DNA of 44,278 nucleotides from Eubacterium sp. (lineage in GTDB: Bacteria; Bacillota; Clostridia; Lachnospirales; Lachnospiraceae). The notes under the pieces were generated by a model that was given only the letters and a program-made list of their open reading frames with translations, searched no databases and was not told where the DNA came from. The stretch lies in contig JAFXZW010000076.1 in the NCBI GenBank assembly GCA_017541035.1, forward strand, positions 1 to 44,278. The letters run 5' to 3'. Below are positions 20,612-44,278 of the stretch, piece by piece (position 1 is the first letter of the stretch; every line of letters starts with the position of its first letter). The position numbers were made by a program, and so were the translations under genes.

Positions 20612-20658
20612 ATATTAGTTATTTTGTGTCATTTTGACGGATTTCAGGAGTGATTAAT

Positions 20659-24903: not shown

Positions 24904-24945
24904 AGCGATGAAAAAACAGAGTGTCTTTTTTGTGTCCATCGCTTT
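24902..24945 (+). terminator. Long hairpin between the kinase gene and the CIS operon
   Basis: AAAGCGATG (24902-24910) pairs perfectly with CATCGCTTT (24937-24945). Inside it an A-rich arm (24911-24920) pairs with TCTTTTTT (24924-24931) around GTG. It could terminate the kinase transcript. Its 3' arm touches the extended -10 of the next promoter. Confidence 0.55.
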
Positions 24946-24953
24946 GATATAAT
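24945..24953 (+). promoter_or_regulatory. Extended -10 promoter of the CIS operon
   Basis: TG-A-TATAAT at 24945-24953, a perfect -10 with TG extension and no clear -35, 49 nt before the first CIS gene. It is the only strong promoter I see before the CIS genes. Confidence 0.65.
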
Positions 24954-25001
24954 GATACTGGGGTGTAGTGTATACTTCTTTAAAGAAAAGTAGAGGGTGT
25001 C

Positions 25002-26834
25002 ATGAACAATAACAATAAGCTTTATCCTTTTGAAAGAAACAGATATTATCCGGGAAAGATGCTGACATCAGCGGACTTTCAGGCAGAACAGAATTATCAC
25101 ATCAACAAGGTGAGATTCCTGAACGGCCTTATGTACGGGTCCGGCATTATCTGCGGTCTCGGAGTATTCTCTCTGGATGACCAGTCAGTGCTGATCGAGA
25201 GCGGTGCTGCAATCGACGGACATGGAAGAGAGATTATTGTGGATTCTTCTACGGTGAAGAAGCTGTCAGCTATCGAAGGATTTGAAGGTACAACAAGTGA
25301 TTTCGTAAGACTCTTTGTCCGCTTTAAGGAACAGGAGATTCATAATGTCTATTCCGTAAACCGGTCGGAGGATGATAAGGAATACGAGTACAATCGCATT
25401 TCCGAGGGGTACGAGCTCTTCCTGATGGATAAGGAATCAGAGGAAACGCAGTATGCCCCGGAGTCAGAATTCCTGACGAAGGAGGTTCTCTTTAAAAGCG
25501 AGAACTATATCGGCGAGGTTATGATGCCGGCTACCGTGAGCAAGGGAAAGAATGCCAAAATCGTTCTTGAGATCCGAAAGATCAGCTCCGAAAATGTGAG
25601 TGTAAGCTGCAGAGGACTGCTGGAAATGCCGGCTTTTGAATCCGCTGACGGGGAGCATGAGATTGAGATCGGGATTGAAAATGTGAATCTGATCGAGGGA
25701 GACTCCGTAAGGAAGGAATATTGGGTTCATGTTCAGGATACACCGGCTGTTGTCAGTGAGCTGATCTTAAGAAGCGGAACGGCATTTGCCTTCGAAAATG
25801 ATAACGCGGTCAATACATCCTCAAATTTTTCTCTGCGAGTCATGTTGAGCAAGCTGTCACCTCTTGAACTGGTCAGCAATGAGATCGGTAAGCTGAATCT
25901 TGAAATGCGCGGAATCGGTCTGATGGATGATTCGGTGCCGATCGCAGATCTGAAGATCGTAAGAACAGCGAACAATTATCTGATTGACACGATCCTGGAG
26001 GATTCCGTCAAGCATTATATAGCGACACCCGCGCAGATTCTGATGCGCAGCCGGTATCTGGCCTTCTTCGACAAGGAAGTGGAGATCACCAGAGCTGCGG
26101 CCTTGACGCAGGAACCGGTTGTTACCGGAAACCGGACTACAAAAACGGAGTTCTCCAATATCGCTACGGGAACGCTGGAGGTTCCCCTCGGGAAGAATGC
26201 CAGAACGGGAGATATCCGTTATTCCGGGGAGATTCCCCACGGACTGGGTGCGGGAAATGTTTACGTTGATATCGGTTACAGCTACGTTTCGGAGAATCCG
26301 GAGCTGGCTGCCAACCAGAAATGCACATTTTACGGTAATCCCGATCTCTTCAGCCGGAAGAATGAACCGATGACGGATGTGGAGACAGGAATCAAGGTTC
26401 TGAATGAAAAAGGCAGTTTTGTTGTAGCTGTACGACTGCTCCGGGATGTGGATTATCTGACGCTCACCTTCCGGTGGGTTGCAATCCGGTTCCCGTCCGG
26501 AGAAGAGATGGAACTGACGGATGATTATTACGATAAGAGCATTTCTGTTGCGACTCCCACAGTTATTATGGGAACAAAGGAAAGTCATTTCTTCAGCGTG
26601 CGATTTAACAACATGAAAGCAACCGGCATAACCTATGAACTGACGTCACCGGGCAGCGGCGAGATCAGTTCCGACGGCGTCTACACGGCACCGTCCAGAG
26701 AAGGTGTCTATGAGATTCGTATCTTCTGCACGGAGATGCCGGTGATCTGTACCTATGCATATGCGATCGTCAGAAAGAAGATGATCGGCGAATCTGAAGA
26801 TGGAGGGGTTTCCGCGGGAAATAGCGGAATCTGA
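25002..26834 (+). CDS. CIS-associated fibre/baseplate-like protein with C-terminal Ig-like domain
   Basis: 610 residues. The N terminus (residues 8-55) reads YPFERNRYYPGKMLTSADF followed by AEQNYHINKVRFLNGLMYGSG and CGLGV. This resembles a motif in proteins encoded within contractile injection system clusters (R-x-R-(F/Y)-x-x-G-x-x-L-x-x-x-D-F-x-x-E-Q, then H-N-R-x-L-x-G-x-G-I-V-C-G-L). A long beta-rich middle follows, and a C-terminal Ig-like domain (about 530-595) with GEISSDGVYTAPSREGVYEI. No signal peptide, as expected for a CIS particle part assembled in the cytoplasm. It is the first gene of the CIS operon. Whether it is a fibre, an adaptor or a baseplate component cannot be decided from sequence. 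Confidence 0.7.
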   Translation: MNNNNKLYPFERNRYYPGKMLTSADFQAEQNYHINKVRFLNGLMYGSGIICGLGVFSLDDQSVLIESGAAIDGHGREIIVDSSTVKKLSAIEGFEGTTSDFVRLFVRFKEQEIHNVYSVNRSEDDKEYEYNRISEGYELFLMDKESEETQYAPESEFLTKEVLFKSENYIGEVMMPATVSKGKNAKIVLEIRKISSENVSVSCRGLLEMPAFESADGEHEIEIGIENVNLIEGDSVRKEYWVHVQDTPAVVSELILRSGTAFAFENDNAVNTSSNFSLRVMLSKLSPLELVSNEIGKLNLEMRGIGLMDDSVPIADLKIVRTANNYLIDTILEDSVKHYIATPAQILMRSRYLAFFDKEVEITRAAALTQEPVVTGNRTTKTEFSNIATGTLEVPLGKNARTGDIRYSGEIPHGLGAGNVYVDIGYSYVSENPELAANQKCTFYGNPDLFSRKNEPMTDVETGIKVLNEKGSFVVAVRLLRDVDYLTLTFRWVAIRFPSGEEMELTDDYYDKSISVATPTVIMGTKESHFFSVRFNNMKATGITYELTSPGSGEISSDGVYTAPSREGVYEIRIFCTEMPVICTYAYAIVRKKMIGESEDGGVSAGNSGI

Positions 26835-26842
26835 GATAGTCT

Positions 26843-27688
26843 ATGACATTCGAATCGCAAAAAGCCAGCTATACTGTCGTTTCCACCCTGTTCAGCGGGA
26901 AAGCGAATTGCTGCTATGTAGCCCGTCTTTCGGAAGAAATGGATGGACGGAGCTTTACGATCATAGCAGTACGTGATCATGATGCGATCCGAACACTGAT
27001 GGAAGCGGAGAGCACGGTCGCCACTATGAAGAACAGTCAGATGATCGATGCGTTCTCGTATGGAAATGATTATGTTCTTGTGTTCCCCTATCGGCAGGAA
27101 AGGCCGCTCAAAACCTTCTTTGTCGGAGAAGCGCTTTCCCTGAGCGAGATTGAGGAAATCGGAACGAACCTGCTGCTGTCCTGTATCATGGCGTCTCTTC
27201 CGTATCCGGTCCTTTACCTTCTCCTGGAACAGGGACAGATCAATCTTGCCAAGGACGGAAGTGTATTCTTCAGCTTTGTTGTTGATTTGAAGGAGATGGA
27301 TCTGAAAAGGACGGAGAGAGACTGCACGGTAAAATGCGCCCAGATCCTGAGGGCCATGCTGGCAACAAAAGAAGATGAGAGAAATATCAGCTATGAACTG
27401 ATCTCCCGAAAAACGGATAACAACAGCTATTCCAGTTTCACGGAATTATATCGGGATCTGCGTATCGCTGCGATGCCGGTTGAAAAAAGAGGTCTCATCG
27501 TCCGTATTAAAAGCTTCTTTATGAGAAATGCCGATCTATTGTTCGGAATTCTCTTCTGGGTATGTCTGATACTTGGGATCATAGCACTGATCATCCTTTT
27601 ATCTAATGTTGTTTGGGGTGATGTACCTATTTTGAGGCTGTTTGTCAATACCTTTAAGAATATAGGAACGGAGTCATTGCTGCAATGA
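26843..27688 (+). CDS. Tail-anchored protein with possible degenerate kinase fold
   Basis: 281 residues, no family recognised with certainty. A C-terminal membrane helix lies at about 232-256 and about 25 residues follow it, so the bulk (1-230) is probably cytoplasmic. The order of features recalls a protein kinase with lost motifs: an N-lobe-like start (LFSGKANCCYVARL, then FTIIAVRD), a hinge-like VLVFPYRQERPLKTFF, and QINLAKDGSVFFSFVVDL where kinases have the catalytic loop and the metal-binding DFG. The Gly-rich loop, the HRD and the DFG are absent, so it would be a pseudokinase, as EssB/YukC is in type VII secretion. That comparison is inference. It overlaps the next gene as ATGA. Confidence 0.5.
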   Translation: MTFESQKASYTVVSTLFSGKANCCYVARLSEEMDGRSFTIIAVRDHDAIRTLMEAESTVATMKNSQMIDAFSYGNDYVLVFPYRQERPLKTFFVGEALSLSEIEEIGTNLLLSCIMASLPYPVLYLLLEQGQINLAKDGSVFFSFVVDLKEMDLKRTERDCTVKCAQILRAMLATKEDERNISYELISRKTDNNSYSSFTELYRDLRIAAMPVEKRGLIVRIKSFFMRNADLLFGILFWVCLILGIIALIILLSNVVWGDVPILRLFVNTFKNIGTESLLQ

Positions 27689-30153
27689 ATGTAAAGGTGC
27701 GAATCCTTCTGGGTATTTTAATATTGACCGTATTGGGTGCTTTGTTCATCGGTGGGAATCTTTTGAATGAAGTGCATCACGATCCCGAATATACGGCTCA
27801 GAGCAGTGCTGTATATACAGATGACTTTGGGGTTTTCTTCATGGAAAACTGGAATGATATGGGACGGCTTTACCGAATCGAAGAGAACGGAAGCGTTCTG
27901 CATATGACAGATTCCGGAAACTTCAAATTGGATAAGGCTGAGAAATTGGCATATCATGACCGGAAGCTGTATGCGCTCTACTCATCGGAGAGGAAGGATT
28001 CGGAAGGCACCTATCCCGTTTACCGGATCGTTTCCTATGATGAAAGCCTGGATCCGGTAAGAATATCGGATTATTTCACCATCGATAAAACCCTTTCGGT
28101 CTGCTCGCTTACAGCTGACGGCCTGGATGTCTATATCTCTACGATATCTCCCAACGGAGAGGCCGTAACGGTTTTCGATGTTCCGGTCACAAGTCTTCAT
28201 GATATGACTGCTGAGGAGAATAATGCTTCGGAACCTGAAAATAACGGCAGTGATGAACCCATTACAAGAAAGAATTACGTTAATCCGGATGCAATCCTTC
28301 ACCGGGAACGTTCCAAAAAACGTTTCTTCGTGGATGCCGCCTTTATCAATCAGGAACTTCATGTGCTTTTGGACGGTGATACCCCTGAGGGCGTTTTTGC
28401 ACCGGATGCCCGCATTAAAAAGGCAGTGGATTCCATCGATTTCACGGTAGGTCAGAAGCTCCGACTTCATTCCGGTCTGATCATAAAGGTCGTTGGTATG
28501 TTTCTGATCTGGCTGATCCTGGTAATCCTAACTCTGAAGCTGACAAAGGACAGGAACAGGATCGTATATCTTTTTTCAGCATCAGAGGTTGTATTCTTCG
28601 TAATCCTTTTCCTTGCTTTCTTCTTCATAAGGGATCAGTATCTTAAGAACGAAACGAAGAATAATACCCGGTTTGCCATGATGGTGATGCAGGAGGATCT
28701 GAAGTATTACAGTGGCGTGGATTATGATGAGGAGGGCTTTGTAGAAAGCACGAAGTATTACAGACTGATGGACAGCCTGGCAGATGTTCTGAACGAGAAC
28801 AACGGGTCGGATGTATTCCATGACGCTTTCGTGATGCGAAAGAGCTCCGGCATGGTTCTGGCGGATGCAAAGGGACGTACGGGAGTACATGCTTCTTATT
28901 TGTACGGCGGGGAAATGTCTTCTCTGCTCCAACAGTTGACGGATAATAAGGAAACGGTTTCCACGTCCTTTAGCCTGGAAGGGGAAGAATTAACCGCAGT
29001 AGCTTACGAGAGCGAGAATCCGAATGATGACCTGGCTCTGGTTGCCATCTGTAAAAGCAGGAAATATTCCGAGAGCTATAAAAAATCCTCGATGTGGCTC
29101 GGGGTCCTCTTTATCATAATCTTTGTAATCGGCAGTATTCTGCTTTTCTTAGCGCTGTATCTGCAGCACATGGATCTGAAGAAGTTCAATTCCGCATTAA
29201 AGGATCTTGCACTTGAGGATAAAAAGGCTGAAATACCAAAATCCCTTTCCCGTGATATGAGAGAGCTGTGGCAGTGTTACGGTGAGTTGTGTAAGAAGAT
29301 CGAACTGATCAATTATGAGAAGTACAGAATCTTTGAGGCATATTATCGGTTCGCCCCCAAAGGAATTGAAAATATTATGGGGCGTGAGTCCATATTTGAC
29401 GTGGAAAACGGTGATATTGCAAATGTTTCCGGTACCATCGTGCTTCTCTCGGTTGATAAAGAGATAACCTTTGAGACAAAAGTGAAGAGTCTGTCAGGTA
29501 TGCTTACGAATATTGAAAAGTATGCCAAAAAGAACGAGGCTATCCTGATATCCAGGGATCAGTCACTCTCCAATGTGAGATTCCTGATAATGAAGGACAC
29601 GAGCGACATGGTTTCTCAGATCGTTCAGTTTATTCACGGCACAGGACCGTTGGCATCCACAGGCTGGTCTATCCTGATGTACAGGGATGTCCTGACCTAC
29701 GGGGTGGCAGGCTCTCAAATGCAGAGCCTTACCTATATCGATTCCGAATATTCACGTAAAATGGATGCCTATGCGGAGTGGTTCCGGATGCTTGGCATTC
29801 CGCTCGTGGTAACGGAAAGGATCTTGCGGACGGATGATGTCGGGGAAAAACGTTATATCGGATGTGCAGCCTTTGACGGAGGCGAGGATATCGTCCATTT
29901 CTATGAAATACTGGATGCGTATCCGGCCGAGGTTCGGCAGATGATGTTGATCAACAGAACAAGATTTGAAGAGACACTGGAACTGTTCTATTCAAAGGAT
30001 TTTTATCTGGCACGAAATCAGTTTATGGATATTCTGAAGGATTGCCCGAGAGATGGTATCACCAGATGGTACATTTTTGAATGTGAGAGGTATATGAACG
30101 GACAGTCTGATATTAAGGAGTCTGCATATATACAGGTCAATCATCAGGATTAA
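27685..30153 (+). CDS. Multi-pass sensor protein with degenerate nucleotidyl-cyclase-like domain
   Basis: 822 residues. Seen: an N-terminal membrane helix (5-23), an extracytoplasmic region to about 262, helices at about 265-287, 293-316 and 471-494, with a second extracytoplasmic (Cache-like position) region at about 320-470, then a cytoplasmic part. From residue 553 the text YYRFAPKGIENIMGRESIFD followed by V-x-N-G-D and VLLSVD matches the entry of class III adenylate cyclases (R-F-x-P-K-x-x-x-x-x-x-G-x-x-S-I-x-D-x-x-x-G-D, then V-L-F-S-D). The metal aspartates and transition-state residues are not evident. The end (about 770-815: FYSKDFYLARNQFMDILKD) resembles the TPR-like tail of such cyclases. 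Probably a non-catalytic signalling or scaffold protein. Confidence 0.55.
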   Translation: MNVKVRILLGILILTVLGALFIGGNLLNEVHHDPEYTAQSSAVYTDDFGVFFMENWNDMGRLYRIEENGSVLHMTDSGNFKLDKAEKLAYHDRKLYALYSSERKDSEGTYPVYRIVSYDESLDPVRISDYFTIDKTLSVCSLTADGLDVYISTISPNGEAVTVFDVPVTSLHDMTAEENNASEPENNGSDEPITRKNYVNPDAILHRERSKKRFFVDAAFINQELHVLLDGDTPEGVFAPDARIKKAVDSIDFTVGQKLRLHSGLIIKVVGMFLIWLILVILTLKLTKDRNRIVYLFSASEVVFFVILFLAFFFIRDQYLKNETKNNTRFAMMVMQEDLKYYSGVDYDEEGFVESTKYYRLMDSLADVLNENNGSDVFHDAFVMRKSSGMVLADAKGRTGVHASYLYGGEMSSLLQQLTDNKETVSTSFSLEGEELTAVAYESENPNDDLALVAICKSRKYSESYKKSSMWLGVLFIIIFVIGSILLFLALYLQHMDLKKFNSALKDLALEDKKAEIPKSLSRDMRELWQCYGELCKKIELINYEKYRIFEAYYRFAPKGIENIMGRESIFDVENGDIANVSGTIVLLSVDKEITFETKVKSLSGMLTNIEKYAKKNEAILISRDQSLSNVRFLIMKDTSDMVSQIVQFIHGTGPLASTGWSILMYRDVLTYGVAGSQMQSLTYIDSEYSRKMDAYAEWFRMLGIPLVVTERILRTDDVGEKRYIGCAAFDGGEDIVHFYEILDAYPAEVRQMMLINRTRFEETLELFYSKDFYLARNQFMDILKDCPRDGITRWYIFECERYMNGQSDIKESAYIQVNHQD

Positions 30154-30178
30154 GAAGAACGACAGGGTGGGATAGGTT

Positions 30179-31402
30179 TTGTTAAGCGTATTATGGCAAT
30201 CAATTAAATCAAAATTCTCGTCCATCGTGTCGAAGCTTCGCATGTGGCTCAGTTGGGACTTCGTAAGAACCAGGATCATCGGACGGATCCGGGATTTCTT
30301 CGTAAGGCTCTTCAATGTAAAGCCCAAGAACAAGGACGATTATTATACGGTCTTCCGCTGGATGATCAGCAAGAAGTTGGCTTATCTGATTGTGATCATC
30401 ATCGGAGTGGTAAGTATTTGGTATCTGGTCACACAATTAAAGCTTTTCTCGGGAACTTCATCCGGTATACCGACATACTCCTATAATTCCATTATGCTTC
30501 GGTTTGCCGATGATAAGGTAAGGATCAAGGCAAAATCCGGATATGTGGCTTATGAGGGAACGGTGAGCAAGGGATATGCAACCGGAGAAGGAACGCTCTT
30601 TTCCAAGGACGGAACGGTTCTATATACCGGAAAGTTCGAGAAGAATCTTTTTGAGGGTGAGGGGACCCAGAACTTTGATTCGGGCGTGGTCCATTACAAG
30701 GGTCAATTTCACGCGAATCTGTATGAAGGACAGGGATCCCTGTTCCGTGAAAACGGAACAAGAGAATATGAAGGCGGATTCTTTGAAGGACTGAAGGAGG
30801 GTGACGGAAAGCTTTTCGATGCCGGAGGAAATCCACTCTTTGAAGGAAGCTTTGCTTCAGATGAGATCATTTACGGAGAACTTCTGGGAAAAACGCCGAA
30901 GGATATCCGTTCCAAGTATTTCGGAAATCAGATTATGTACGAAGAAAGTGCGGAGCTGGGTTCCGACGTAGTGATCCATCTGGAGGGCATTAATGTCCTG
31001 TATCTAGCGAAAAGCGATGGATCTGCGACAGATGACAGTATGAAGGCTGTAAATGTCGTTGTTCTCACCGATACATTCAAGTCGGGAAGAACCGCCGCCA
31101 GAGGGATTGAAGGTATCAAAAACATTCTTGGAGAACCTGTATATGAAGGATATTCTTCGGTAATCCTGCCGGAGGCTGTGGCAATCAATATCCTGAATAA
31201 TAAGAAAAGTACGCTGAAGGGCAGAGTAAATATGGATACCACCATGGTATATACGGATGATATTACCGTGAGAAGTATCGATCCGAATTATTCCGTGTAT
31301 ATTTACACCTTCAGAAGAGGAGATCTAATGTACTCCTTTGTATGTAATGAACCGGGTGGCAATTTTGCTTTTTATGAGATCGAGTCCGGAGGATCACAAT
31401 GA
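30179..31402 (+). CDS. Single-pass membrane protein with MORN-type repeats
   Basis: 407 residues. Seen: a basic, amphipathic cytoplasmic N terminus, one membrane helix at about 67-85, then three to five MORN-like repeats at 120-227 (YEGTVSKGYATGEGTLFSKDG, YTGKFEKNLFEGEGTQNF, YKGQFHANLYEGQGSLF, YEGGFFEGLKEGDGKLF), then an extracytoplasmic domain of unknown type. MORN repeats usually bind lipids or proteins. The start is uncertain: I use TTG 30179 because the next ATG (30242) has no ribosome site. The stop overlaps the next gene as ATGA, so the block is translationally coupled. Confidence 0.65.
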   Translation: MLSVLWQSIKSKFSSIVSKLRMWLSWDFVRTRIIGRIRDFFVRLFNVKPKNKDDYYTVFRWMISKKLAYLIVIIIGVVSIWYLVTQLKLFSGTSSGIPTYSYNSIMLRFADDKVRIKAKSGYVAYEGTVSKGYATGEGTLFSKDGTVLYTGKFEKNLFEGEGTQNFDSGVVHYKGQFHANLYEGQGSLFRENGTREYEGGFFEGLKEGDGKLFDAGGNPLFEGSFASDEIIYGELLGKTPKDIRSKYFGNQIMYEESAELGSDVVIHLEGINVLYLAKSDGSATDDSMKAVNVVVLTDTFKSGRTAARGIEGIKNILGEPVYEGYSSVILPEAVAINILNNKKSTLKGRVNMDTTMVYTDDITVRSIDPNYSVYIYTFRRGDLMYSFVCNEPGGNFAFYEIESGGSQ

Positions 31403-37853: not shown

Positions 37854-37875
37854 TGATTCATAAAGAGGGAGAAAG

Positions 37876-38466
37876 ATGGCAGATTATCCAATCATATCAG
37901 ATGTAAGTTCTTACATCGTGAGAAAGCTTCGGGAAAAAATGTGCCCGGAGCCGATCCCTTCACCGAACAATATCGAGGTATCCTCGCCTGCTTCGCAGGA
38001 TGTGGATTATCTGGTGGGTGTGTACCTGTACAATATTGAGGAAGATCTTCAGGTAACCACGCCCCGGATGATCGAACGGGGAAGGGCAGAATTAACAAGG
38101 CCGCCGAGACCATTTGCTCTTTACTATATGGTCTTTATAAACGCCGGAGGTCAGGCAGGCCTCAAGGCGGATGATATGCAAAAGATCATCGGTAAGATCG
38201 CGCAGATAGTCAATGACAATAACTCTGTGCGCCCCGATGAACTGCAGTCTTGGCTAACAACACAGGAACCTCCGATCGTACTGTCTCAGGCGAAGATAAG
38301 TCTGGAGGAAAAGGTAAGGGTTTGGTCGGCGATCAATAAGCCATATCAGATCAGCCTGTTCTACAAGGCGGCACCCGTTTACCTGTCCAGTGCGGAAGTT
38401 ATCGAGACACCGCGCGTTGTGGATGCAAGCTTCGGGCTGCATGTAACTGGGGAGGACAGAACATAG
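37876..38466 (+). CDS. DUF4255 protein (Afp16/Pvc16 N-terminal type), CIS sheath/tube terminator-like
   Basis: 196 residues of the DUF4255 family, a near-constant member of contractile injection system clusters that matches the N-terminal part of Afp16/Pvc16, which caps the tube and sheath. Seen: PIISDVSSYIVRKLREKM at the start, VGVYLYNIEEDLQVTTPR, the RPPRPFALYYMVF motif typical of the family, a helical middle, and INKPYQISLFYKAAPVYLSS near the end. It lies at the boundary between the envelope block and the particle genes. A GGGAGAAAG ribosome site precedes the ATG. Confidence 0.88.
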   Translation: MADYPIISDVSSYIVRKLREKMCPEPIPSPNNIEVSSPASQDVDYLVGVYLYNIEEDLQVTTPRMIERGRAELTRPPRPFALYYMVFINAGGQAGLKADDMQKIIGKIAQIVNDNNSVRPDELQSWLTTQEPPIVLSQAKISLEEKVRVWSAINKPYQISLFYKAAPVYLSSAEVIETPRVVDASFGLHVTGEDRT

Positions 38467-38544
38467 GATCTATGTGTTATTGTCTTCGGTGTTCAGGTCG
38501 CATGAGGGGGGATCTTCATGCAGGGAAAGGAAGGAGGAATCGAA

Positions 38545-39285
38545 ATGGGAGCTTCTGTTATCCGTGCCAGATTGGATCTTTTAATAAGGCTGTATGACAC
38601 GACGACGGGAGCAACGGTAGACGAAAGAAATGTATTGTTTAAGAGAGACGGTGTGCCCGTCAGACCGGAGTCCAGAGGCGCAGGTACCTACGTATTCATC
38701 AACACAGGCAGGGATGATTTTCTCATGCGAATAGAAGTTTTTGGTTACGATGGATATGAGGTCAGCGTTCGTTATGAAGAGTTGGACGAAGGACTTCCGG
38801 CCTGCTACGTGTTCCTGATGCCATCTGAGAACACGCTAAGAGGGAGAAACACGCTCAGTTTCTCGGGGACTCTTCCTTTTCTGAAAAAGATCGAGGCGGT
38901 GAATCTGAATAAAACAATCTGTGTGACGGGAAATATGAATAAAAAGACCAATGAGATTTCGGTCTTTCATCCGTCGGGCGGATCCATCTCAATGGATGAA
39001 TGTTTTTACGGATTACTGTCAGCTGACAAAAGTAGCTTTGAAAGAATCGAAGTAGAGAAGATGATCTCGCCGAAGTCTATCAGGCTGAAACGTCCGATTG
39101 AGGGAGCTTTTGCTCCGAACCTTCCGATAGCCAGAATCGTTACCGGAGTTGTGCACGGTGACGGAGAATATCTTATCAGAGTGCAGGATGACGGAGAAAA
39201 TACGAAATATCTGGTGCGATATGAGGTTGGAGAAGAGGTAAGATTTCAGGAAGTTGATTTTCATGATCAGGAGGTATTGCAGTGA
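38545..39285 (+). CDS. CIS-associated beta-rich protein of unknown function
   Basis: 246 residues, no family recognised with confidence. The N-terminal about 95 residues look like an Ig or carboxypeptidase-regulatory-like beta sandwich (RARLDLLIRLYDTTTGATVD, then GTYVFINTG and IEVFGYDGYEVSVRYEEL). The rest is beta-rich and ends with GVVHGDGEYLIRVQDDGE. No signal peptide. I chose ATG 38545 over ATG 38518 because AAGGAGG (38531-38537) lies 7 nt upstream. It sits between the DUF4255 gene and the PAAR-like tip gene and overlaps the latter by 4 nt, so it is probably a particle component such as an adaptor or a tip-bound protein. Confidence 0.6.
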   Translation: MGASVIRARLDLLIRLYDTTTGATVDERNVLFKRDGVPVRPESRGAGTYVFINTGRDDFLMRIEVFGYDGYEVSVRYEELDEGLPACYVFLMPSENTLRGRNTLSFSGTLPFLKKIEAVNLNKTICVTGNMNKKTNEISVFHPSGGSISMDECFYGLLSADKSSFERIEVEKMISPKSIRLKRPIEGAFAPNLPIARIVTGVVHGDGEYLIRVQDDGENTKYLVRYEVGEEVRFQEVDFHDQEVLQ

Positions 39286-39671
39286 GTTTACTGGTAGCAA
39301 TGGGAGCAAATCTCCTATGTACAATGGGCACTGCGCCCGCACCGATCAAGGTCACATCCCAGAGTAAGGTGCTGCTTGAGGGGAAACCCGCAGCCACCAT
39401 TCAGGATTGTGCACCAACATCAAATGTAGGTCCCTTCGGGATGTGTACATCACTGGCAAATCCGACAGTAGCTTCTGCAACTGCGGCGGCCCTGGGTGTA
39501 CTCACACCGCAGCCCTGCGTACCGGTTCCGGCCGGGACATGGATTCCAACCACGCCGAAGGTGCTGGTCGACGGAAAACCATGTCTGGCGCAGGATTGCA
39601 AGCTTGCATGTGCGTATGCAGGCCAGATCTCAGTAACACTTCCGGGACAGACCAAGACGAATGCGAACTGA
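39282..39671 (+). CDS. DUF4280 PAAR-like tip protein
   Basis: 129 residues of the DUF4280 (PAAR-like) family, which sharpens the spike of contractile injection systems. Seen: the opening MGANLLCTMGTAPAPIKVTS, ATIQDCAPTSNVGPFGMCTS with the conserved Pro/Cys turns, a repeated strand pattern VLLEGKPAATI and VLVDGKPCLA, and seven cysteines (13, 43, 55, 79, 101, 106, 110) that could hold a metal as PAAR domains do. It starts at GTG 39282, overlapping the previous stop as GTGA. The sheath gene follows after 40 nt. Confidence 0.88.
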   Translation: MSLLVAMGANLLCTMGTAPAPIKVTSQSKVLLEGKPAATIQDCAPTSNVGPFGMCTSLANPTVASATAAALGVLTPQPCVPVPAGTWIPTTPKVLVDGKPCLAQDCKLACAYAGQISVTLPGQTKTNAN

Positions 39672-39711
39672 TTCTTCTCGGTATCAAGAATAAAAGAAAG
39701 GAAAGAAAAAG

Positions 39712-41412
39712 ATGGCAGAATATTTATCACCTGGGGTTTATGTAGAAGAATATGATAATTCCCCGCGAGGTATTGAAGGCGTAGGAACAAGCACAGCCGG
39801 TTTCGTCGGCCTTGCTGAAAAAGGACCGGTTTCCGGTGCACCCGTATTTGTACAGAGCTTCAAGGCTTTTAAGCAGAACTTCGGCGGATACTTAAATGAG
39901 TTCACTTATGGTGAGTACAGATACCTGGCAAACAGCGTTGAGCAGTTTTTTGCCAACGGCGGAAACAGATGCTTTGTAATGAGAGTTGCTCCGAAGGATG
40001 CTGTAGCAGCCTCCTCTGAAGCGGGACTTGTAACATTTAAGGCAAAGAACCCCGGTGCATGGGGCAACAAGATTCAGATCACTCTGAATTCCGTAAAGCG
40101 TCACAAGATCCAGCTTCTGGAAGAAACCGATACCGGTTATAAGGCTAAGACAACCGATGGCCTTCGTGAAGGCGATATCGTTGAGTTTGACGGAACCTTT
40201 ACCAGAATCACAACGATCATGGACAATATGCTCACCTTTGAAGATGAACTTCCGGACAAGGCTGTTGACAACAACATCATTCCGAAGAATGTTCTCTACG
40301 TTGTTACATTTGATATGGGTATCCGTTATGCGGATGACGCAGAGCGTTATTCCGACCTTACCTTTAACCCGGCTTCTCCCATGTACATCGGTGCCAAGCT
40401 TGCCACAAGCGAACTGGTTGATGTTGAGGTTAAGCCGATGGAAGAAGCAGGCGATCCGGTAGAAGCCATCCTCGGCGATGACGAAACCAGCGGCGCATTC
40501 TTCCTGGAGGGCGGTGCGGACGGTACCGTTTCCAAGGTCAACGCAGGCACCTTTATCGGTGAAGACAATGGCCCCGGCAAGCGTACCGGACTGCAGGCAT
40601 TTGTTGAGAATAACAATGTCAGCATGATCGCAATCCCCGGTATTACCATTCCTGAGGTGATTGTATCTCTGGTTGGTCACTGCGAGAATCAGAGAAATCG
40701 CTTTGCAGTTATCGATATGCCGAAGGATTATTACAAGCCTGCTGATCTGATCAACTACAGAAGTATGATCGATTCCACCTATGCAGCTATGTATCATCCG
40801 TGGATCGAGGTATTTGATCCGTCATCCAACAAGGCTGATTTTGTACCTCCTTCAGGTGCAGTCATGGGTATCTACGCAAGAACGGATCAGAGCCGCGGCG
40901 TTCATAAGGCACCGGCAAATGAAACCGTTTTCTGCTCCGGCCTGAAGACAAATTATACCAAGGAAGAGCAGGATCTTCTGAATCCGGAAGGCATCAATCT
41001 GATTCGTGCACTTCCCGGACAGGGAATCCGTGTATGGGGTGCCCGTACAGCTTCCACAAATGCAACCTTCAAGTATGTCAATGTACGCCGTCTCTTCATC
41101 TTTGTGGAGGAGAGCATCAAGGCAAATACAAACTGGGTTGTATTCGAACCGAACGATTCAACACTTTGGCAGAGAGTACAGCTGTCCGTATCCGGTTTCC
41201 TTGACGGACTCTGGAGAAACGGCATGCTGGCCGGCGATTCACCGTCTGCAGGTTATTTCGTAGAGATCGGACCTTCGACTATGTCCAGGGATGATATCAT
41301 GAACGGCAGACTGATATGTAACGTAGGCATTGCTCCGTCCAGACCGGCTGAGTTTGTGATCTTCCGCGTAACGCAGTTCACATCCGAAGCATCTGCAGGC
41401 GGAGAAGGCTGA
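39712..41412 (+). CDS. Contractile sheath protein
   Basis: 566 residues, phage-tail-sheath family. Seen: N terminus YLSPGVYVEEYDNSPRGIEG followed by TSTAGFVGLAEKGP, the hallmark of CIS sheaths, which donate this strand to neighbouring subunits; a variable middle domain; and the conserved C-terminal region with VNVRRLFIFVEESIKANTNW, VFEPNDSTLWQRV, and a final RPAEFVIFRVTQF strand. The sheath surrounds the inner tube and contracts to drive it. Codon usage is regular and likely fits strong expression. The first tube gene follows after 37 nt. Confidence 0.95.
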   Translation: MAEYLSPGVYVEEYDNSPRGIEGVGTSTAGFVGLAEKGPVSGAPVFVQSFKAFKQNFGGYLNEFTYGEYRYLANSVEQFFANGGNRCFVMRVAPKDAVAASSEAGLVTFKAKNPGAWGNKIQITLNSVKRHKIQLLEETDTGYKAKTTDGLREGDIVEFDGTFTRITTIMDNMLTFEDELPDKAVDNNIIPKNVLYVVTFDMGIRYADDAERYSDLTFNPASPMYIGAKLATSELVDVEVKPMEEAGDPVEAILGDDETSGAFFLEGGADGTVSKVNAGTFIGEDNGPGKRTGLQAFVENNNVSMIAIPGITIPEVIVSLVGHCENQRNRFAVIDMPKDYYKPADLINYRSMIDSTYAAMYHPWIEVFDPSSNKADFVPPSGAVMGIYARTDQSRGVHKAPANETVFCSGLKTNYTKEEQDLLNPEGINLIRALPGQGIRVWGARTASTNATFKYVNVRRLFIFVEESIKANTNWVVFEPNDSTLWQRVQLSVSGFLDGLWRNGMLAGDSPSAGYFVEIGPSTMSRDDIMNGRLICNVGIAPSRPAEFVIFRVTQFTSEASAGGEG

Positions 41413-41449
41413 GATCATGGAACAGAATAAAGAAAGGGAGAATTAAAAT

Positions 41450-41950
41450 ATGGCAGCTACAACATATGATAACGGTAAAGGATCCTACTATCCGTTGACA
41501 AAAATGAACTTCCTGGTTACTGTTTCTGAGGTCGCAGGAACTGCCGCGTTCTCAGAGGTAACCGGTGTAGAAGGATCAGTTGATGTAATTGATTTCCGAC
41601 AGGGCAACTCAGGATCCCTCGCTCCTGTCAAGATTCCGGGACTTGTTAAGCATGGAAATGTAACGCTGAAGATGGGCTATATCATCGACAGCCCCTTCAA
41701 GACATGGATTCAGGAGTGTGTAAGTGAGACGCGTGGTCAGATGCCGAGATATGATGTAACCATCGAGCTGATCGACATCAATCCGGGTGCTCCGGCAACA
41801 ACGGTTACAACACCGACCGGAACCAGAACCTGGACCCTGACCAATGCCTGGGTTTGCAAGTATAACGCTCCCGATCTCGATGCCGGCAACTCCGGTGTTG
41901 CGATTGAGTCCGTTGAGATTGCTTACGAAGAACTCGTAATCCCGAACTAG
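41450..41950 (+). CDS. Inner tube protein (gp19-like), first copy
   Basis: 166 residues, T4 gp19 / Hcp-like tail tube family. Seen: the beta-barrel start YYPLTKMNFLVTVSEVAGTAAFSEVTGVEG with the conserved F-x-E-V-x-G-x-E pattern, VDVIDFRQGNSGSLAPVKIPGLVKHGNVTLKMGYI (the DFRQGN...K-P-G-L region), and the closing strand SVEIAYEELVI. This is the likely main tube. It lies next to the sheath gene, the usual CIS order. A structured non-coding element follows instead of the next gene. Confidence 0.95.
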   Translation: MAATTYDNGKGSYYPLTKMNFLVTVSEVAGTAAFSEVTGVEGSVDVIDFRQGNSGSLAPVKIPGLVKHGNVTLKMGYIIDSPFKTWIQECVSETRGQMPRYDVTIELIDINPGAPATTVTTPTGTRTWTLTNAWVCKYNAPDLDAGNSGVAIESVEIAYEELVIPN

Positions 41951-41957
41951 CGCGTAA

Positions 41958-42093
41958 AATGAGCCATGCACATCCACTTCGATATCCTGTGCGGAAGCTT
42001 GCTTCCCAGCACAGTGATATCGAAGTGGATGTATACGGCGAAGCCGCGACATCGACGAGCACGAAGTGCTCGGAGAGGCGTGCATGGCTCATT
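41958..42093. repeat. Nested palindromic (cloverleaf-like) intergenic element, copy 2
   Basis: The outer 13-bp inverted repeat AATGAGCCATGCA (41958-41970) pairs with TGCATGGCTCATT (42081-42093). Inside, hairpin A is a 29-bp nearly perfect stem (41970-41998 with 42001-42032). The core ACGGCGAAGCCGCGAC lies at 42035-42050. Hairpin B is CGAGCAC-GAA-GTGCTCG (42056-42072). The layout and core match the element at 12925-13104, while stem sequences differ. It interrupts the CIS operon between the tube gene and the chaperone gene. From 42094 to 42229 I see no gene, only the ribosome site AAGGAGG (42218-42224). Confidence 0.78.
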
Positions 42094-42229
42094 CAAAACA
42101 AAGCACATGCACGAGCACAAAAAATCCAGTATGCAATTTCAGGATGCATGGCTTTGCAGCCGTCTTTTGGCGGTTGCAGCCTGGCCGTGCATCTTACAAA
42201 GTGCATAGTGAAGTATGAAGGAGGTTAGT

Positions 42230-42592
42230 ATGCAAACAGTTTATGACTTTACATTACCCAAGGGATATATTGATTCTACAGGAGAAGTGCACCGCCGCGG
42301 AAAAATGCGGCTGGCAACAGCAGGTGATGAGATTTCGGCAACCAGGGATCCCAGAGTCCTGCAGAACCCTTCTTATCTGACGATCGTTGTTCTGAGTCGT
42401 GTGATCACGGAGCTTGAGGGTGTACAGGGAATATCTGCCACCGTGGTTGAAAAGCTCTTCACGGCAGATCTTGCTTATCTTCAGGATATGTACCAGAGAA
42501 TCAATGATATCGAACCTCCTACACTTAAGGCTGTTTGCCCGGATTGCGGAAAGACCTTTGAGGTACCGCTAAATTTTACCGGGGAGGGTTAA
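42230..42592 (+). CDS. CIS tail-assembly-chaperone-like protein with Cys pair
   Basis: 120 residues, resembling a conserved small protein found after the tube gene in CIS clusters. Seen: YDFTLPKGYIDSTGEVHRRG, MRLATAGDEISATRDPRVLQNPSYLTIVVLSRVIT (the R-L-A-T-A-x-D-E and D-P-R-V-x-x-N-P-x-Y-L-T motifs), FTADLAYLQDMYQRIN, and a C-terminal C-P-D-C-G zinc-knuckle half. I chose ATG 42230 over 42215 because AAGGAGG is 5 nt upstream. Close to the stop lies a slippery heptamer A AAT TTT (42571-42577), and the -1 frame is open into a DUF6760-like sequence, so a longer fused product is likely as well. Confidence 0.75.
   Translation: MQTVYDFTLPKGYIDSTGEVHRRGKMRLATAGDEISATRDPRVLQNPSYLTIVVLSRVITELEGVQGISATVVEKLFTADLAYLQDMYQRINDIEPPTLKAVCPDCGKTFEVPLNFTGEG
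42571..42577 (+). promoter_or_regulatory. Candidate -1 ribosomal frameshift site
   Basis: The heptamer reads A AAT TTT in the zero frame of the chaperone gene, the X-XXY-YYZ form. A GAGGT Shine-Dalgarno-like sequence lies 6 nt upstream (42560-42564), in the manner of dnaX-type stimulators. The zero frame stops 12 nt downstream (42590-42592), while the -1 frame runs on to 42804. Confidence 0.55.
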
Positions 42593-42804
42593 GGCTTTAT
42601 CCCGAGGATGAGCTTTACAGAGAGATGGCGTTTATCTCGTATTATTTTCACTGGAGTGAAGAGAACGTAATGATGTTGGAACACAGAGAACGGCGAAAAT
42701 GGTGCAAGGAGATATCCGGTATCAACAGGGAGCTGAACCCCTCCAAAGAAAAGAAAGAAAAGAGTATTACGGAGATGCAGCCCGCACGTTTTTCATTTAA
42801 TTAG
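42577..42804 (+). CDS. DUF6760-like small CIS protein, probably a frameshift extension
   Basis: Reading from 42577, the frame gives YRGGLRLYPEDELYREM followed by AFISYYFHWSEENVMMLEHR and ERRKWCKEI, then a basic tail. The pattern Y-P-E-x-x-L-Y-x-E-x-A-F-I-x-Y-x-F-H-W and L-E-H-R-E-R-R-x-W is that of the short DUF6760-type proteins next to CIS tube genes. The frame has no ATG, GTG or TTG before ATG 42625, which would remove the conserved LYPEDELYRE; the frame opens only at 42562, after a TGA. Either it starts at ATG 42625 (59 residues) or, more likely, it is reached by -1 frameshifting from the upstream chaperone gene. The stop is TAG at 42802-42804. Confidence 0.65.
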   Translation, partial: YRGGLRLYPEDELYREMAFISYYFHWSEENVMMLEHRERRKWCKEISGINRELNPSKEKKEKSITEMQPARFSFN

Positions 42805-42861
42805 AAGCTGTAAAGCCCATTGCAGACTGCAGAAACACAGTAAAACCATGAGGATTGACTA

Positions 42862-44278
42862 ATGGCAGGTGGAAATTACGACAGATCCAATAAGAAATCA
42901 CAGCTGAATCCGGCTGTGGCGTATGCTTTTGCGCTGCAGGTGGAGGCTGCTTTTTTCCTTCCTCTGAGAGCCGTTAGAGTATTCACGAAGGAGAATGAGT
43001 TCGACTACTATCAGGAGGGTGGACTGAATGATTATGTTCATTTGCTGAGAAAGCCCATTTCAAAGCCCTTTACTTTCCAGGTGGAAAGGTATATCGGCGT
43101 TGACGGGGGATTTCTTGATTTGAACTCAGGTTTTGTGGATCCACTGTCTCTGGGAACAGAGCTTATCCTTCCGGTTATTCTGTATGTTAACCGCAGTCCT
43201 GCTGGTGACTGGTATAAAAATATCAGCTTTACCAATTGCGCAAGAGCATACATTTTCACCGGCTGCACCGTGATTTCAAAGGAGTACGGAGAACTGAACG
43301 CGGAGCAGAGCAAGCTGCACACGGAGACGGTTACCATCGCGTACAGAGAACTTTTTGCAATCAACCAGATTAGTCCGGATTGGGAATCCGGAGGACAATG
43401 GGAATATGACGGGACCGTTGTAGGAGACGGAACGTCACATACCGAAAACCGCAATGTGAACGTAGCGGAGGAAATGAAAAAATGGAACTTCCCGGGGGCC
43501 AGACCGGATGGCAAGGAGGAGACGACACCGAGCACGGATCATAGATTGGTACGGAGTAATAAAACTGTTACAGTAACAACAAAGAAACCCAGTAAATGGA
43601 ATTTCCCAGGAGCCAGACTGGACGGTGCGGCAGAGACAACACCGAGTACGGATCATACTTTAAACCGCAGCGAGAACACGAGAGTGGGAATGAGCAAATG
43701 GAACTATCCCGGGACTTCGGAGGAAACGAAAAGTGTTGACCATACTCTGAACCGAAGTGTAAATGAAAAGGCTGATGCCAGTAAGTGGAATTTCCCGGGT
43801 GCTTCGGATAAAACCGCCAGTGTGGATCATGTCACAAACAGAAATGTTAATGTGAAGGCAGAGCCCAGCAAGTGGAACTTCCCGGGGGCAGAAGACGGAA
43901 CAGCCAGTGTGGACCATACAATTAACCGTAGTATTAACGAGAAGGCAGAACCCAGCAAGTGGAACTTCCCGGGGGCCGGCGATGAGACTGCCAGTGTGGA
44001 TCATACTGCAAACCGCAGCATGAATGACCAGAAAGCAGAGCCCAGCAAATGGAGCTTCCCGGGCGCCGAGGATGGAATGGCCAGCGTGGACCATACCACG
44101 AACCGAAATGTCAATGAGAAGGCAGAACCCAGCAAGTGGAGCTTCCCGGGTGCCGAGGATGGAACAGCCAGCGTGGATCATACCACGAACCGAAATATCA
44201 ATGAGAAGGCAGAACCCAGCAAGTGGAGCTTCCCGGGTGCCGAGGACGGAACGGCCAGCGTGGATCATACCACGAACC
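42862..44278 (+). CDS. Second tube-family protein with C-terminal KW-FPGA repeats (partial)
   Basis: At least 472 residues, cut by the window end. Residues 17-168 form a gp19-like tube domain: FALQVEAAFFLPLRAVRVFT, YYQEGGLNDYVHLLRKP, FTFQVERYIG, TNCARAYIFTGCTV and the closing TETVTIAYREL. A short linker follows, and from Lys207 nine repeats of KW(N/S)FPGA-x-D-x-T-A-S-V-D-H-T-x-N-R-x-x-N-x-K-A-E-P-S, 29 residues in the later copies, continue to the edge. CIS tube proteins are normally about 150 residues, so the repeat tail is unusual. ATG 42862 has AGGA 7 nt upstream. It may form the tube-baseplate junction, with the repeats bound to cargo or spike; that is inference. Confidence 0.8.
   Translation, partial: MAGGNYDRSNKKSQLNPAVAYAFALQVEAAFFLPLRAVRVFTKENEFDYYQEGGLNDYVHLLRKPISKPFTFQVERYIGVDGGFLDLNSGFVDPLSLGTELILPVILYVNRSPAGDWYKNISFTNCARAYIFTGCTVISKEYGELNAEQSKLHTETVTIAYRELFAINQISPDWESGGQWEYDGTVVGDGTSHTENRNVNVAEEMKKWNFPGARPDGKEETTPSTDHRLVRSNKTVTVTTKKPSKWNFPGARLDGAAETTPSTDHTLNRSENTRVGMSKWNYPGTSEETKSVDHTLNRSVNEKADASKWNFPGASDKTASVDHVTNRNVNVKAEPSKWNFPGAEDGTASVDHTINRSINEKAEPSKWNFPGAGDETASVDHTANRSMNDQKAEPSKWSFPGAEDGMASVDHTTNRNVNEKAEPSKWSFPGAEDGTASVDHTTNRNINEKAEPSKWSFPGAEDGTASVDHTTN
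43480..44278 (+). repeat. In-frame 87-bp tandem repeats, running off the window
   Basis: Units begin at 43480 and include near-identical copies starting at 44047, 44134 and 44221 (period exactly 87). Early units are longer and more diverged; late units are almost identical in DNA. This suggests recent tandem expansion toward the 3' end. Confidence 0.9.

Follow-up and report, generated by a model that had tools for sequence, protein, structure and literature searches.

The membrane complex of the Gram-negative T6SS is made of TssJLM. Its trans-envelope role is mentioned in PMC12237407, and the locus described here would resemble it in pairing a complex of this kind, as a dedicated part, with the genes of a contractile tail. 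A contractile injection system (CIS) may also be tied to a membrane in other ways. In Streptomyces, a monoderm bacterium (as our host appears to be) with a Cis-type particle, the cluster-encoded bitopic membrane protein CisA is proposed to recruit the particle and to trigger firing, and the CIS has been linked to the death of the producer cell; the cytoplasmic region of CisA is described as largely unstructured and its outer domain as substrate-binding-like (PMC12237407). The thylakoid tCIS of Anabaena is again a Cis-type particle, held at a membrane before firing with the involvement of Cis13, and there Cis13 has a transmembrane (TM) helix and Cis12 an extension (PMC8894136). Finally, the haloarchaeal T6SS is a CIS anchored in a single-membrane cell, where it is reported to kill in a contact-dependent manner. 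Its putative anchor, Hbor_38620, spans the membrane with six TM helices, has some 150 residues in the cytoplasm and is encoded by a gene confined to one CIS clade; the closest relatives of the Cis11 of this system are reported in Bacillota, and no complex is reported to have been seen outside the membrane (PMC11566945).

We describe here a CIS of the Lachnospiraceae with envelope proteins that, in our best reading, form a complex that differs from CisA, from the tCIS, from the archaeal system and from TssJLM alike. Our search of the open-licence literature found no published description of such a CIS.

The locus and its particle

The window, the stretch of 44,278 nucleotides that was analysed, is the entire contig C126 of a genome of 2.98 Mb in 139 contigs. 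The CIS operon starts at 25002, and its remainder lies elsewhere in this genome, on contig C103, the start of which falls inside the repeat of the second tube-family protein found at the end of C126. C103 contributes the remaining baseplate genes, together with STAS, GHKL, AAA+, FtsE-like and PP2C genes. The features of the window are as follows.

22812..24903, + strand: two-component genes for a response regulator and a histidine kinase, immediately before the operon (Pfam Response_reg, His_kinase, HATPase_c)
25002..26834, + strand: Cis13-family protein, 610 aa (NCBIfam CIS13_fam E 3.7e-29, residues 9-157, below the equivalog cut-off)
26843..27688, + strand: tail-anchored pseudokinase, 281 aa, kinase fold cytoplasmic, one TM helix at 230-258
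27685..30153, + strand: membrane sensor of 822 aa with outer loops and four stretches of hydrophobic residues (alignment, hydropathy)
30179..31402, + strand: MORN-repeat protein, 407 aa (Pfam MORN E 1.5e-7; alignment, genome search, hydropathy)
31399..33450, + strand: exported protein of 683 aa with a predicted TolC fold of two alpha-hairpin repeats and a signal-like stretch at the N-terminus
33447..37853, + strand: giant exported repeat protein of 1468 aa, whose C-terminal domain resembles Cu_amine_oxidN1 (E 5.7e-5, slightly short of the cut-off)
37876..38466, + strand: cap or tail terminator, Pvc16, DUF4255 (Pfam Pvc16_N E 6.6e-28)
38518..39285, + strand: 255-aa protein of no assigned function, kept beside the cap in type A loci (no Pfam match)
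39282..39671, + strand: PAAR-like spike tip, DUF4280 (Pfam E 4.7e-32)
39712..41412, + strand: contractile sheath (Phage_sheath_1 E 5.6e-20, Phage_sheath_1C E 2e-13), with no other Phage_sheath_1 match across the genome
41450..41950, + strand: inner tube protein (Phage_T4_gp19 E 3.1e-28)
42215..42592, + strand: tail assembly chaperone-like protein (PHROG 508 E 1.9e-8)
42862..44278, + strand: second tube-family protein with a repeat tail, truncated by the contig end (weak matches, Pfam E 0.048, PHROG E 0.0059)

With sheath, tube, cap, PAAR tip, gp25, spike, baseplate J, Cis12/TailI and AAA+ ATPase, the particle is of the eCIS/Cis type. The baseplate genes were identified in a relative by Pfam and NCBIfam, then as homologues on C103; the AAA+ ATPase matches Pfam AAA at E 4.8e-28 in the copy of genome G080, a homologue of the host's own protein. 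An initial annotation had proposed that a CIS and five co-oriented genes are joined here, three of the junctions being overlaps. Coordinates and identities were verified on the sequence: the five genes sit between the Cis13 gene and the cap gene, with 4-base ATGA overlaps at the pseudokinase/sensor, MORN/TolC-like and TolC-like/giant junctions. Because this gene order is found again in dozens of species, the arrangement is far beyond chance. The host had also been taken for an apparent monoderm, and the genome search agrees, finding no Omp85 match in its own genome where the same search was positive in 7 of 14 control genomes.

It may be asked whether the block simply helps a released particle, by aiding assembly, wall passage or lysis, the particle then acting outside. 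Described eCIS do leave by lysis of the producer and bind their targets with fibres (PMC12237407), and a Cis13-family protein, present here, is a fibre elsewhere (PMC12210884). Against this, the genes annotated in the host's island include none recognisable as a holin or endolysin, and the CIS of Clostridia that belong to the same class and have no envelope block form a separate sheath lineage (support 100/100). We regard release as very improbable.

Envelope genes that accompany the particle

Co-occurrence was examined in 250 genomes of the family, taken to be Lachnospiraceae from relatives that bear names, 23 with a CIS cap gene and 227 without. Strong matches to the pseudokinase were found in 21/23 cap-positive vs 0/227 cap-negative genomes (Fisher p 1.3e-28, ignoring relatedness), the MORN protein gave the same counts at E <= 1e-30, and the TolC-like protein was present in 13/23 vs 0/227 (Fisher p 6.6e-16, ignoring relatedness). 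As the search profiles were derived from cap-positive loci, the positive side of these comparisons is partly there by construction. Had the block genes occurred mostly in genomes devoid of CIS, their association with the particle would have had to be abandoned; since this was not so for pseudokinase, MORN protein and TolC-like protein, the three to which clear cut-offs were applied, the view that they belong with the particle is supported. Gene order was unbroken at all 80 named TolC-like loci; CIS genes were visible at 71 of these, the other nine lying on contigs shorter than 9 kb.

Pseudokinase-like proteins of about 400-660 aa were found in eight cap-negative genomes of the class (E <= 1e-13), with no CIS genes adjoining in the stretches read, two of which span only 3.6 and 4.6 kb. 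One of these genes adjoins two giant exported proteins, and with a profile made from type A only, the best of these proteins score about as the weaker type B pseudokinases do.

The five genes had been proposed to work as a single set, and this did not survive comparison of the loci: Cis13, pseudokinase and MORN protein make an invariant core, and the others vary. The Cis13 gene lies directly upstream of the pseudokinase gene at all 62 named loci that have both, and the core holds together in three operon layouts despite relocation of the cap or of the structural genes. The sensor, sometimes placed between pseudokinase and MORN protein, is optional, being dropped or relocated in several loci. 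The TolC-like and giant proteins are an extra part, missing from the seven type B systems of this family, so that the wall part is not required in all.

A pseudokinase and a MORN protein at the membrane

The Cis13-family protein is the probable connector between baseplate and membrane. Hydropathy found no TM helix in 21 of 22 Cis13 proteins scanned, that of the window included, the exception being one hydrophobic stretch in the protein of genome G180; unlike in the tCIS, separate membrane proteins follow Cis13 here. The first of these had been described as a tail-anchored kinase-like protein. Tail anchor and kinase fold stand, AlphaFold predicting a Hanks fold, and catalysis falls: across 62 sequences, with catalytic positions assigned by inspection, Lys is at position 44 in 23/62 and there is no HRD or DFG, hence the name pseudokinase. 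About 23 residues lie outside the membrane and carry a conserved F..IGTE motif. EssB, the EssB/YukC pseudokinase of type VII secretion, is absent among the PDB matches listed for the protein, an absence that does not exclude EssB homology. The MORN membrane protein was recognised as such in the initial annotation, and its Pfam match and single TM helix by hydropathy bear this out; its N-terminus is basic, the helix comes next, and the MORN repeats that follow would, by the positive-inside rule, lie outside the membrane.

A recruitment of the CisA kind has to be weighed at this point. Cytoplasmic particles would be captured and fired under envelope stress only, mainly killing or reshaping the producer, as proposed for Streptomyces; this is the proposed mode of the membrane factor studied in monoderm bacterial CIS (PMC12237407), and stress-type signalling parts (sensor, STAS, GHKL, PP2C) are found at our locus. 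Yet CisA is one bitopic protein, and here there are three to five, pseudokinase, MORN protein, TolC fold and giant making a larger module with parts that reach outside the membrane; the pseudokinase, moreover, has an ordered kinase fold inside and only its short tail outside. We find this reading unlikely, if less so than release. The archaeal and Gram-negative comparisons go the same way: unlike the haloarchaeal T6SS, the locus has single-TM proteins with exported TolC-fold and repeat proteins, and unlike the Gram-negative T6SS, it belongs to a cell where the outer membrane is absent, none of the five block proteins having a TssJ, TssL or TssM domain at E <= 0.05.

A predicted TolC fold with no outer membrane

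The resemblance of the exported protein to TolC turned out to be more than that. The AlphaFold model has the full TolC topology, with the two-repeat alpha-hairpins, the hairpin-tip motifs of the outer membrane factor family and, unlike that family, additional C-terminal beta domains and no strands of barrel length (2-residue strands at 87-88 and 95-96, and 5 + 4 residues at 321-331), in a host where Omp85 was not found. A CIS tube is wider than a canonical TolC trimer would admit, and the TolC-like protein therefore need not be the path of the tube. The giant protein, whose other listed copies have 734-1139 aa, carries its own N-terminal signal-like stretch (hydropathy), and in one genome, G242, the TolC-like and giant proteins are fused into one.

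Export is a further reading. The TolC-like protein and the FtsE-like ABC ATPase, present in 5/7 extended type A loci, might form a type I-like exporter of the giant or of a peptide, merely co-regulated with the CIS island, and OEP (TolC-family) proteins do occur away from CIS in 22 of 150 genomes of the family. Inspection recognised no HlyD-type adaptor or MacB-type permease at the locus, however, and both the giant's own signal-like stretch and the fusion speak against it, so that we consider this highly improbable.

Signalling around the particle

The sensor had been called cyclase-like, and its C-terminal domain does look like a class III cyclase, named by inspection with no credible Pfam match; it lacks the catalytic Asp residues and appears to be dead (inspection of the alignment and of type B homologues), so that the name holds for the domain and not for catalysis. 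Homologues at E <= 1e-20 are found in 18 cap-positive and 2 cap-negative genomes, and two more lie inside the host genome. A STAS gene directly follows the baseplate genes in 8/9 type A/A' loci reaching that far, its product having SSAGLR or SSSGLR (Pfam STAS E 5e-20); it is missing at one A' locus, that of G085. The GHKL protein has no recognised HisKA. SpoIIE PP2C matches in the host genome reach E 4e-51 and 6e-47, and PP2C genes are near only 3/7 extended type A loci. Directly upstream, the response regulator and histidine kinase probably exert transcriptional control of the operon, a same-strand response-regulator homologue being found at 10/80 named loci.

With sensor, STAS and two-component genes at hand, the block might only sense the outside and control production or licensing of the CIS, with no contact with the particle; the TolC-like and giant proteins could then form an adhesin or a receptor. 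The most conserved members, pseudokinase, MORN protein and TolC-like protein, are nevertheless not recognisable signalling enzymes, and the tightest link is that of the pseudokinase with a structural gene, Cis13. This makes a purely sensory role improbable.

A proposed docked particle

The reading that we favour, with some reserve, is that of a CIS with a dedicated envelope complex that would hold the loaded particle at the cytoplasmic membrane and reach into the wall, working in a monoderm much as the membrane complex does in the T6SS. The linkage of the genes, together with the topology and fold of their products, leads us to infer such a trans-envelope dock; the direction of firing is inferred as well. 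The baseplate Cis13 would contact the cytoplasmic domain of the pseudokinase, which with the MORN protein would form a ring in the membrane, its conserved tail meeting the MORN repeats outside. In type A, the TolC-like protein might stand on this ring via its conserved hairpin tips, cross part of the wall and carry the giant repeat protein, which would sense or bind a target or the wall. The sensor, along with partner switching by STAS, GHKL and PP2C, would license firing; the complex would then pass a conformational signal back to the baseplate, and the sheath would contract through the cell's own envelope.

A bolder version, which we hold with more doubt than belief, would make of it the Gram-positive counterpart of the T6SS: a membrane-standing CIS on a pseudokinase/MORN ring, with a barrel-less TolC-fold dock spanning the wall, possibly six-fold to match the baseplate, and a giant contact sensor, used in contact-dependent competition among Lachnospiraceae of the gut and rumen.

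Significance

In the literature compared, the contact-dependent CIS of single-membrane cells is archaeal (PMC11566945). A large metagenome survey reported Bacteroidota as the CIS producers of the human digestive tract (PMC12210884), and systems of the Lachnospiraceae may thus have been missed. Because the operon is carried by records that are not labelled as metagenome assemblies (Butyrivibrio sp. FCS014, AE3009, AE2015 and Su6; Lachnospiraceae XBB2008), the question of docking looks directly testable in isolates. Many members of the family re-use a TolC-type fold, as predicted, with no outer membrane. The linked envelope module of this family bears on the question of how a CIS acts in thick-walled bacteria that have a single membrane: in many such bacteria of the gut and rumen, the CIS, rather than floating free, is probably held and triggered at the cell surface by envelope proteins linked to it.

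Architecture of the locus and its continuation on a second contig

The genome from which the window comes (hereafter, the own genome) amounts to 2.98 Mb in 139 contigs, and the window takes up the whole of its contig C126 (44,278 bases). On inspection, bases 1-24903 look like ordinary chromosome ending in a two-component pair, just before which lies a gene (20650-22815) whose 721-aa product is an exported repeat protein with a transmembrane stretch at its C-terminus; similar proteins are found near the islands of the contractile injection system (CIS) in G041 and G469. From 25002 onward all genes share one orientation, in the order Cis13-family gene, five genes for membrane or exported proteins (the block: pseudokinase, sensor, MORN protein, TolC-like protein and giant repeat protein), cap (the Pvc16_N/DUF4255 protein), 255-aa protein, PAAR-like tip, sheath, tube, chaperone, and a second tube-family gene (42862-44278) which runs past the contig end. 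The locus is a CIS: domain matches bear out what had been read as sheath, tube, cap, PAAR-like tip and chaperone, the sheath is the sole Phage_sheath_1 match in the own genome, and the three ATGA overlaps reported by the initial annotation between block genes are present in the sequence. Chaperone and second tube gene are separated by 269 bases (about 42590-42861), in which a short open stretch in another frame can be read by eye. In other CIS a small protein follows this kind of chaperone; the stretch resembles it, and a frameshift where the chaperone gene stops may give access to it.

The baseplate half of the operon was found on contig C103 of the own genome, via a 1025-aa baseplate-region protein of a relative. 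The second tube protein has a repeat tail, and it is here that the assembly breaks: the start of C103 (L194:1-712) and the end of the window carry the same repeat unit, which accounts for the cut operon. Contig C103, from which the stretches L194 and L195 were read, encodes:

L194:709-5463, a 1584-aa homologue of the 630-aa protein of that relative
two CIS_tube proteins
VgrG-like and spike proteins
gp25, baseplate J and TailI/Cis12
a STAS protein (Pfam E 5e-20)
a GHKL protein with a TM anchor
a 259-aa protein, related to an SH3-containing protein of G041
an AAA+ ATPase (assigned through the G080 homologue, Pfam AAA E 4.8e-28)
L195:746-1447, FtsE-like ABC ATPase (Pfam ABC_tran E 1.7e-34)
several uncharacterised proteins of large size
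a second STAS protein
two SpoIIE-type phosphatases

The 1584-aa protein, whose gene follows that of the second tube protein and precedes the CIS_tube genes, has Glu/Arg-rich repeats, and its counterparts measure about 620-740 aa in several relatives and 1137 aa in G149. The island further encodes a 1645-aa protein (L195:4258-9195), in which Pfam ABC1 (E 5e-19) marks a kinase domain of ABC1/APH-like type and which together with its neighbours is a candidate for cargo.

Conservation of gene order

Gene content and order were compared in 22 relatives over stretches of up to 40 kb containing the cap gene, using a crude gene caller whose lists lack some genes visible to tblastn (e.g. MORN and PAAR in G149). 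The arrangements are as follows:

Type A: Cis13-pseudokinase-sensor-MORN-TolC-giant-cap-255-PAAR-sheath
Type A' (G085, G104): Cis13-pseudokinase-MORN-TolC-giant-sheath, with cap shifted behind the baseplate genes
Type B (G016, G022, G054, G076, G106, G188, G196): baseplate genes, then Cis13-pseudokinase-MORN-cap, with the sensor behind cap

G176 is of type A without the sensor; in G104 the PAAR gene precedes the sheath; in type B the sheath lies ahead of the baseplate genes wherever the stretch extends that far. G086 and G242 are intermediate, the sensor sitting between pseudokinase and MORN, and a single protein of 1558 aa combines TolC-like and giant parts in G242. Contig ends cut the loci of G056, G006 and G208.

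Scanning the genome_contigs collection with the TolC-like alignment, we kept the best 80 of 202 relatives, mostly labelled Lachnospiraceae or Butyrivibrio and many of them from the rumen. A CIS gene lies in the stretch for 71 of these 80 named loci, the other nine being on contigs of 3.1-8.9 kb; all five block genes are present in 62/80, and Cis13 adjoins the pseudokinase in 62 of the 62 that hold both. The initial annotation had proposed to check whether the genes keep their order; it is broken in 0/80. Seven of these loci appear to be the same as G006, G041, G080, G129, G174, G407 and G469, so that the two sets are not independent.

Association of the block with the CIS in the family

Cap Pvc16_N matched 23 of 250 family genomes (Lachnospiraceae, own genome included) at E <= 0.001, 22 being above the cut-off. 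The pseudokinase profile matched 28 at E <= 0.001: 21 near full length (E <= 5.1e-24), all cap-positive, and seven partial matches, in cap-negative genomes. Two cap-positive genomes have no pseudokinase match: G006, which is 67% complete and whose 11-kb contig opens with the last part of the MORN gene, and G163, with a weak cap match in an apparent remnant. In the G163 stretch (L063) a shortened Cis13 gene, the end of a cap gene and a PAAR gene come in succession, which has the appearance of a CIS island remnant left by deletion. The TolC-like profile matched 18 genomes, 13 strongly (E <= 2e-82), every one of these cap-positive; the MORN-protein profile matched 30 at E <= 1e-10, with 21 at E <= 1e-30, all cap-positive, and nine weaker matches to MORN repeats of other proteins. 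The sensor profile matched 43 genomes at E <= 1e-5 and 20 at E <= 1e-20, the latter comprising 18 cap-positive and two cap-negative ones (G125, G200), and the own genome has two further sensor homologues besides the block gene. In G160, a second species of the window's genus, searches for cap, pseudokinase, TolC-like, MORN and sensor gave no match. The initial annotation had tied the whole block to the particle: this stands for pseudokinase, MORN and TolC-like proteins (0/227 cap-negative genomes at strong cut-offs) and gives way in part for the sensor, on account of G125 and G200.

Because the profiles were built from cap-positive loci, the positive side of this co-occurrence is partly by construction, and what carries information is the lack of strong matches in the 227 cap-negative genomes, together with the members recovered from outside the profiles. 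For the pseudokinase (profile A1) these are G016, G056, G085, G086, G104 and G208 in the family and G407 and G469 in the class; for the TolC-like protein (A2) G006, G104, G208 and G242; for MORN (A3) G016, G056, G085, G086, G104, G149 and G208. Profile A1 includes type B pseudokinases picked by position and topology; a profile made from type A only (A5) gave E values of 5e-25 for G086, 1e-15 to 2.4e-10 for six out of seven type B pseudokinases, 3.5e-5 for G106, 8e-4 for G242 and 7e-3 for G511. The association of the block with the CIS is firm.

Distribution in the class, and systems without the block

Cap is present in 11 of the 291 genomes of the class sample, some of which are common to the family sample. 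A CIS-linked pseudokinase accompanies it in six (G000, G180, G022, G469, G407, G511), two of them from other families: G407, which belongs to the same taxonomic order, shows the type A arrangement in the genes labelled, while G511 has a pseudokinase (E 1.5e-9) and a 426-aa TolC-like protein (E 5e-6). The other five (G274, G383, G448, G488, G446) have cap and no CIS-linked pseudokinase. At the three loci read (G274, G383, G446) an AAA ATPase gene (Pfam E 2e-34 to 4e-38) directly precedes cap, and the genes labelled include neither a MORN nor a TolC-like one; their sheaths split from 17 block-type sheaths with 100/100 support, one of the 17, that of G006, showing no pseudokinase because its contig is cut. 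The eCIS survey (PMC8213781) names Ruminiclostridium cellulolyticum.

A pseudokinase family strictly specific to CIS is rejected: longer pseudokinase-like proteins, of about 400-660 aa and in one case with a PKD domain, occur at E <= 1e-13 in eight class genomes that lack cap; no CIS genes lie nearby in the stretches read, some of which span only 3.6-4.6 kb. At L180 and L184 (stretches of G446 and G356), pseudokinase-like proteins with a tail anchor, about 400 aa long, are found near very large proteins (about 2000 aa, with hydrophobic N-termini), with no CIS genes in the stretch; an independent use of the same anchor is possible.

Control genes downstream

A STAS protein with SSAGLR or SSSGLR directly follows TailI in 8/9 type A or A' loci reaching that far (G041, G080, G104, G129, G149, G180, G469 and the own genome), the exception being G085, where cap follows TailI. 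A TM-anchored GHKL homologue, for which generic kinase similarity is possible, occurs in or just before the island in six of seven extended type A loci (own genome, G041, G080, G129, G180, G469; not G149). Downstream PP2C genes are present in G129, in G149 and in the own genome, which has two; in G054, of type B, one adjoins the sensor. The FtsE-like ABC ATPase is found in 5/7 extended type A islands, with no partner permease recognised within the locus. RsbU/RsbV/RsbW provide the model of a partner switch, and the STAS, GHKL and PP2C genes fit a switch of this kind, which would act as a licence for CIS assembly or firing.

The envelope module and its TolC-like protein

Pfam and NCBIfam scans gave no usable match for the pseudokinase, the sensor or the 255-aa protein; weak matches of PFF1_TM and T6SS_Burk_ExIF to the sensor, and of Hydrolase_3 to Cis13, were judged spurious. 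The metal-binding Asp residues of the sensor are missing by inspection, and on this ground the reading as an active cyclase is rejected; the protein looks inactive and cyclase-like. A regex count gave six repeat units in the giant protein, and EssB is not among the PDB matches listed. Over 24 loci, distances correlate with those of the sheath at 0.87-0.91 for block genes and Cis13 and at 0.71-0.79 for cap, 255-aa protein, PAAR, tube and chaperone, figures which carry little weight because slow genes hold less signal; two alignments took in 61/63 and 59/77 of the sequences listed for them.

The envelope complex of this CIS differs from all the known envelope complexes tested. We compared it with tCIS (PMC8894136), CisA (PMC12237407) and the archaeal T6SS (PMC11566945); further background came from a metagenome survey of CIS (PMC12210884) and a review (PMC10598620). 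No description of this module was found among the listed titles and abstract openings of the open-licence literature, where Lachnospiraceae with 'contractile injection system' led to a phrase in a reference list only (PMC10266427) and Butyrivibrio with 'contractile injection' to nothing. The anatomy of the module is well supported by prediction; its mechanism we infer. Docking of the CIS at the membrane appears to us somewhat more likely than not; as to release by lysis, a review of the annotated genes of the island recognised no lysis gene.

A TolC-family protein unique to the CIS is ruled out within this monoderm family: at E <= 0.001 Pfam OEP matched 26 of 150 genomes, solely in the CIS gene in four (G006, G041, G085, G104) and away from the CIS in 22, often in proteins of roughly 400 aa and within clusters. 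The strongest match, which comes from G129 (contamination 6), may be foreign; the own genome shows none at this threshold. The TolC-fold part is the most surprising piece of the module. The bore of a normal TolC trimer is too narrow for a CIS tube, so that this part may instead form a wider ring, receive the spike, or serve as dock or sensor base.
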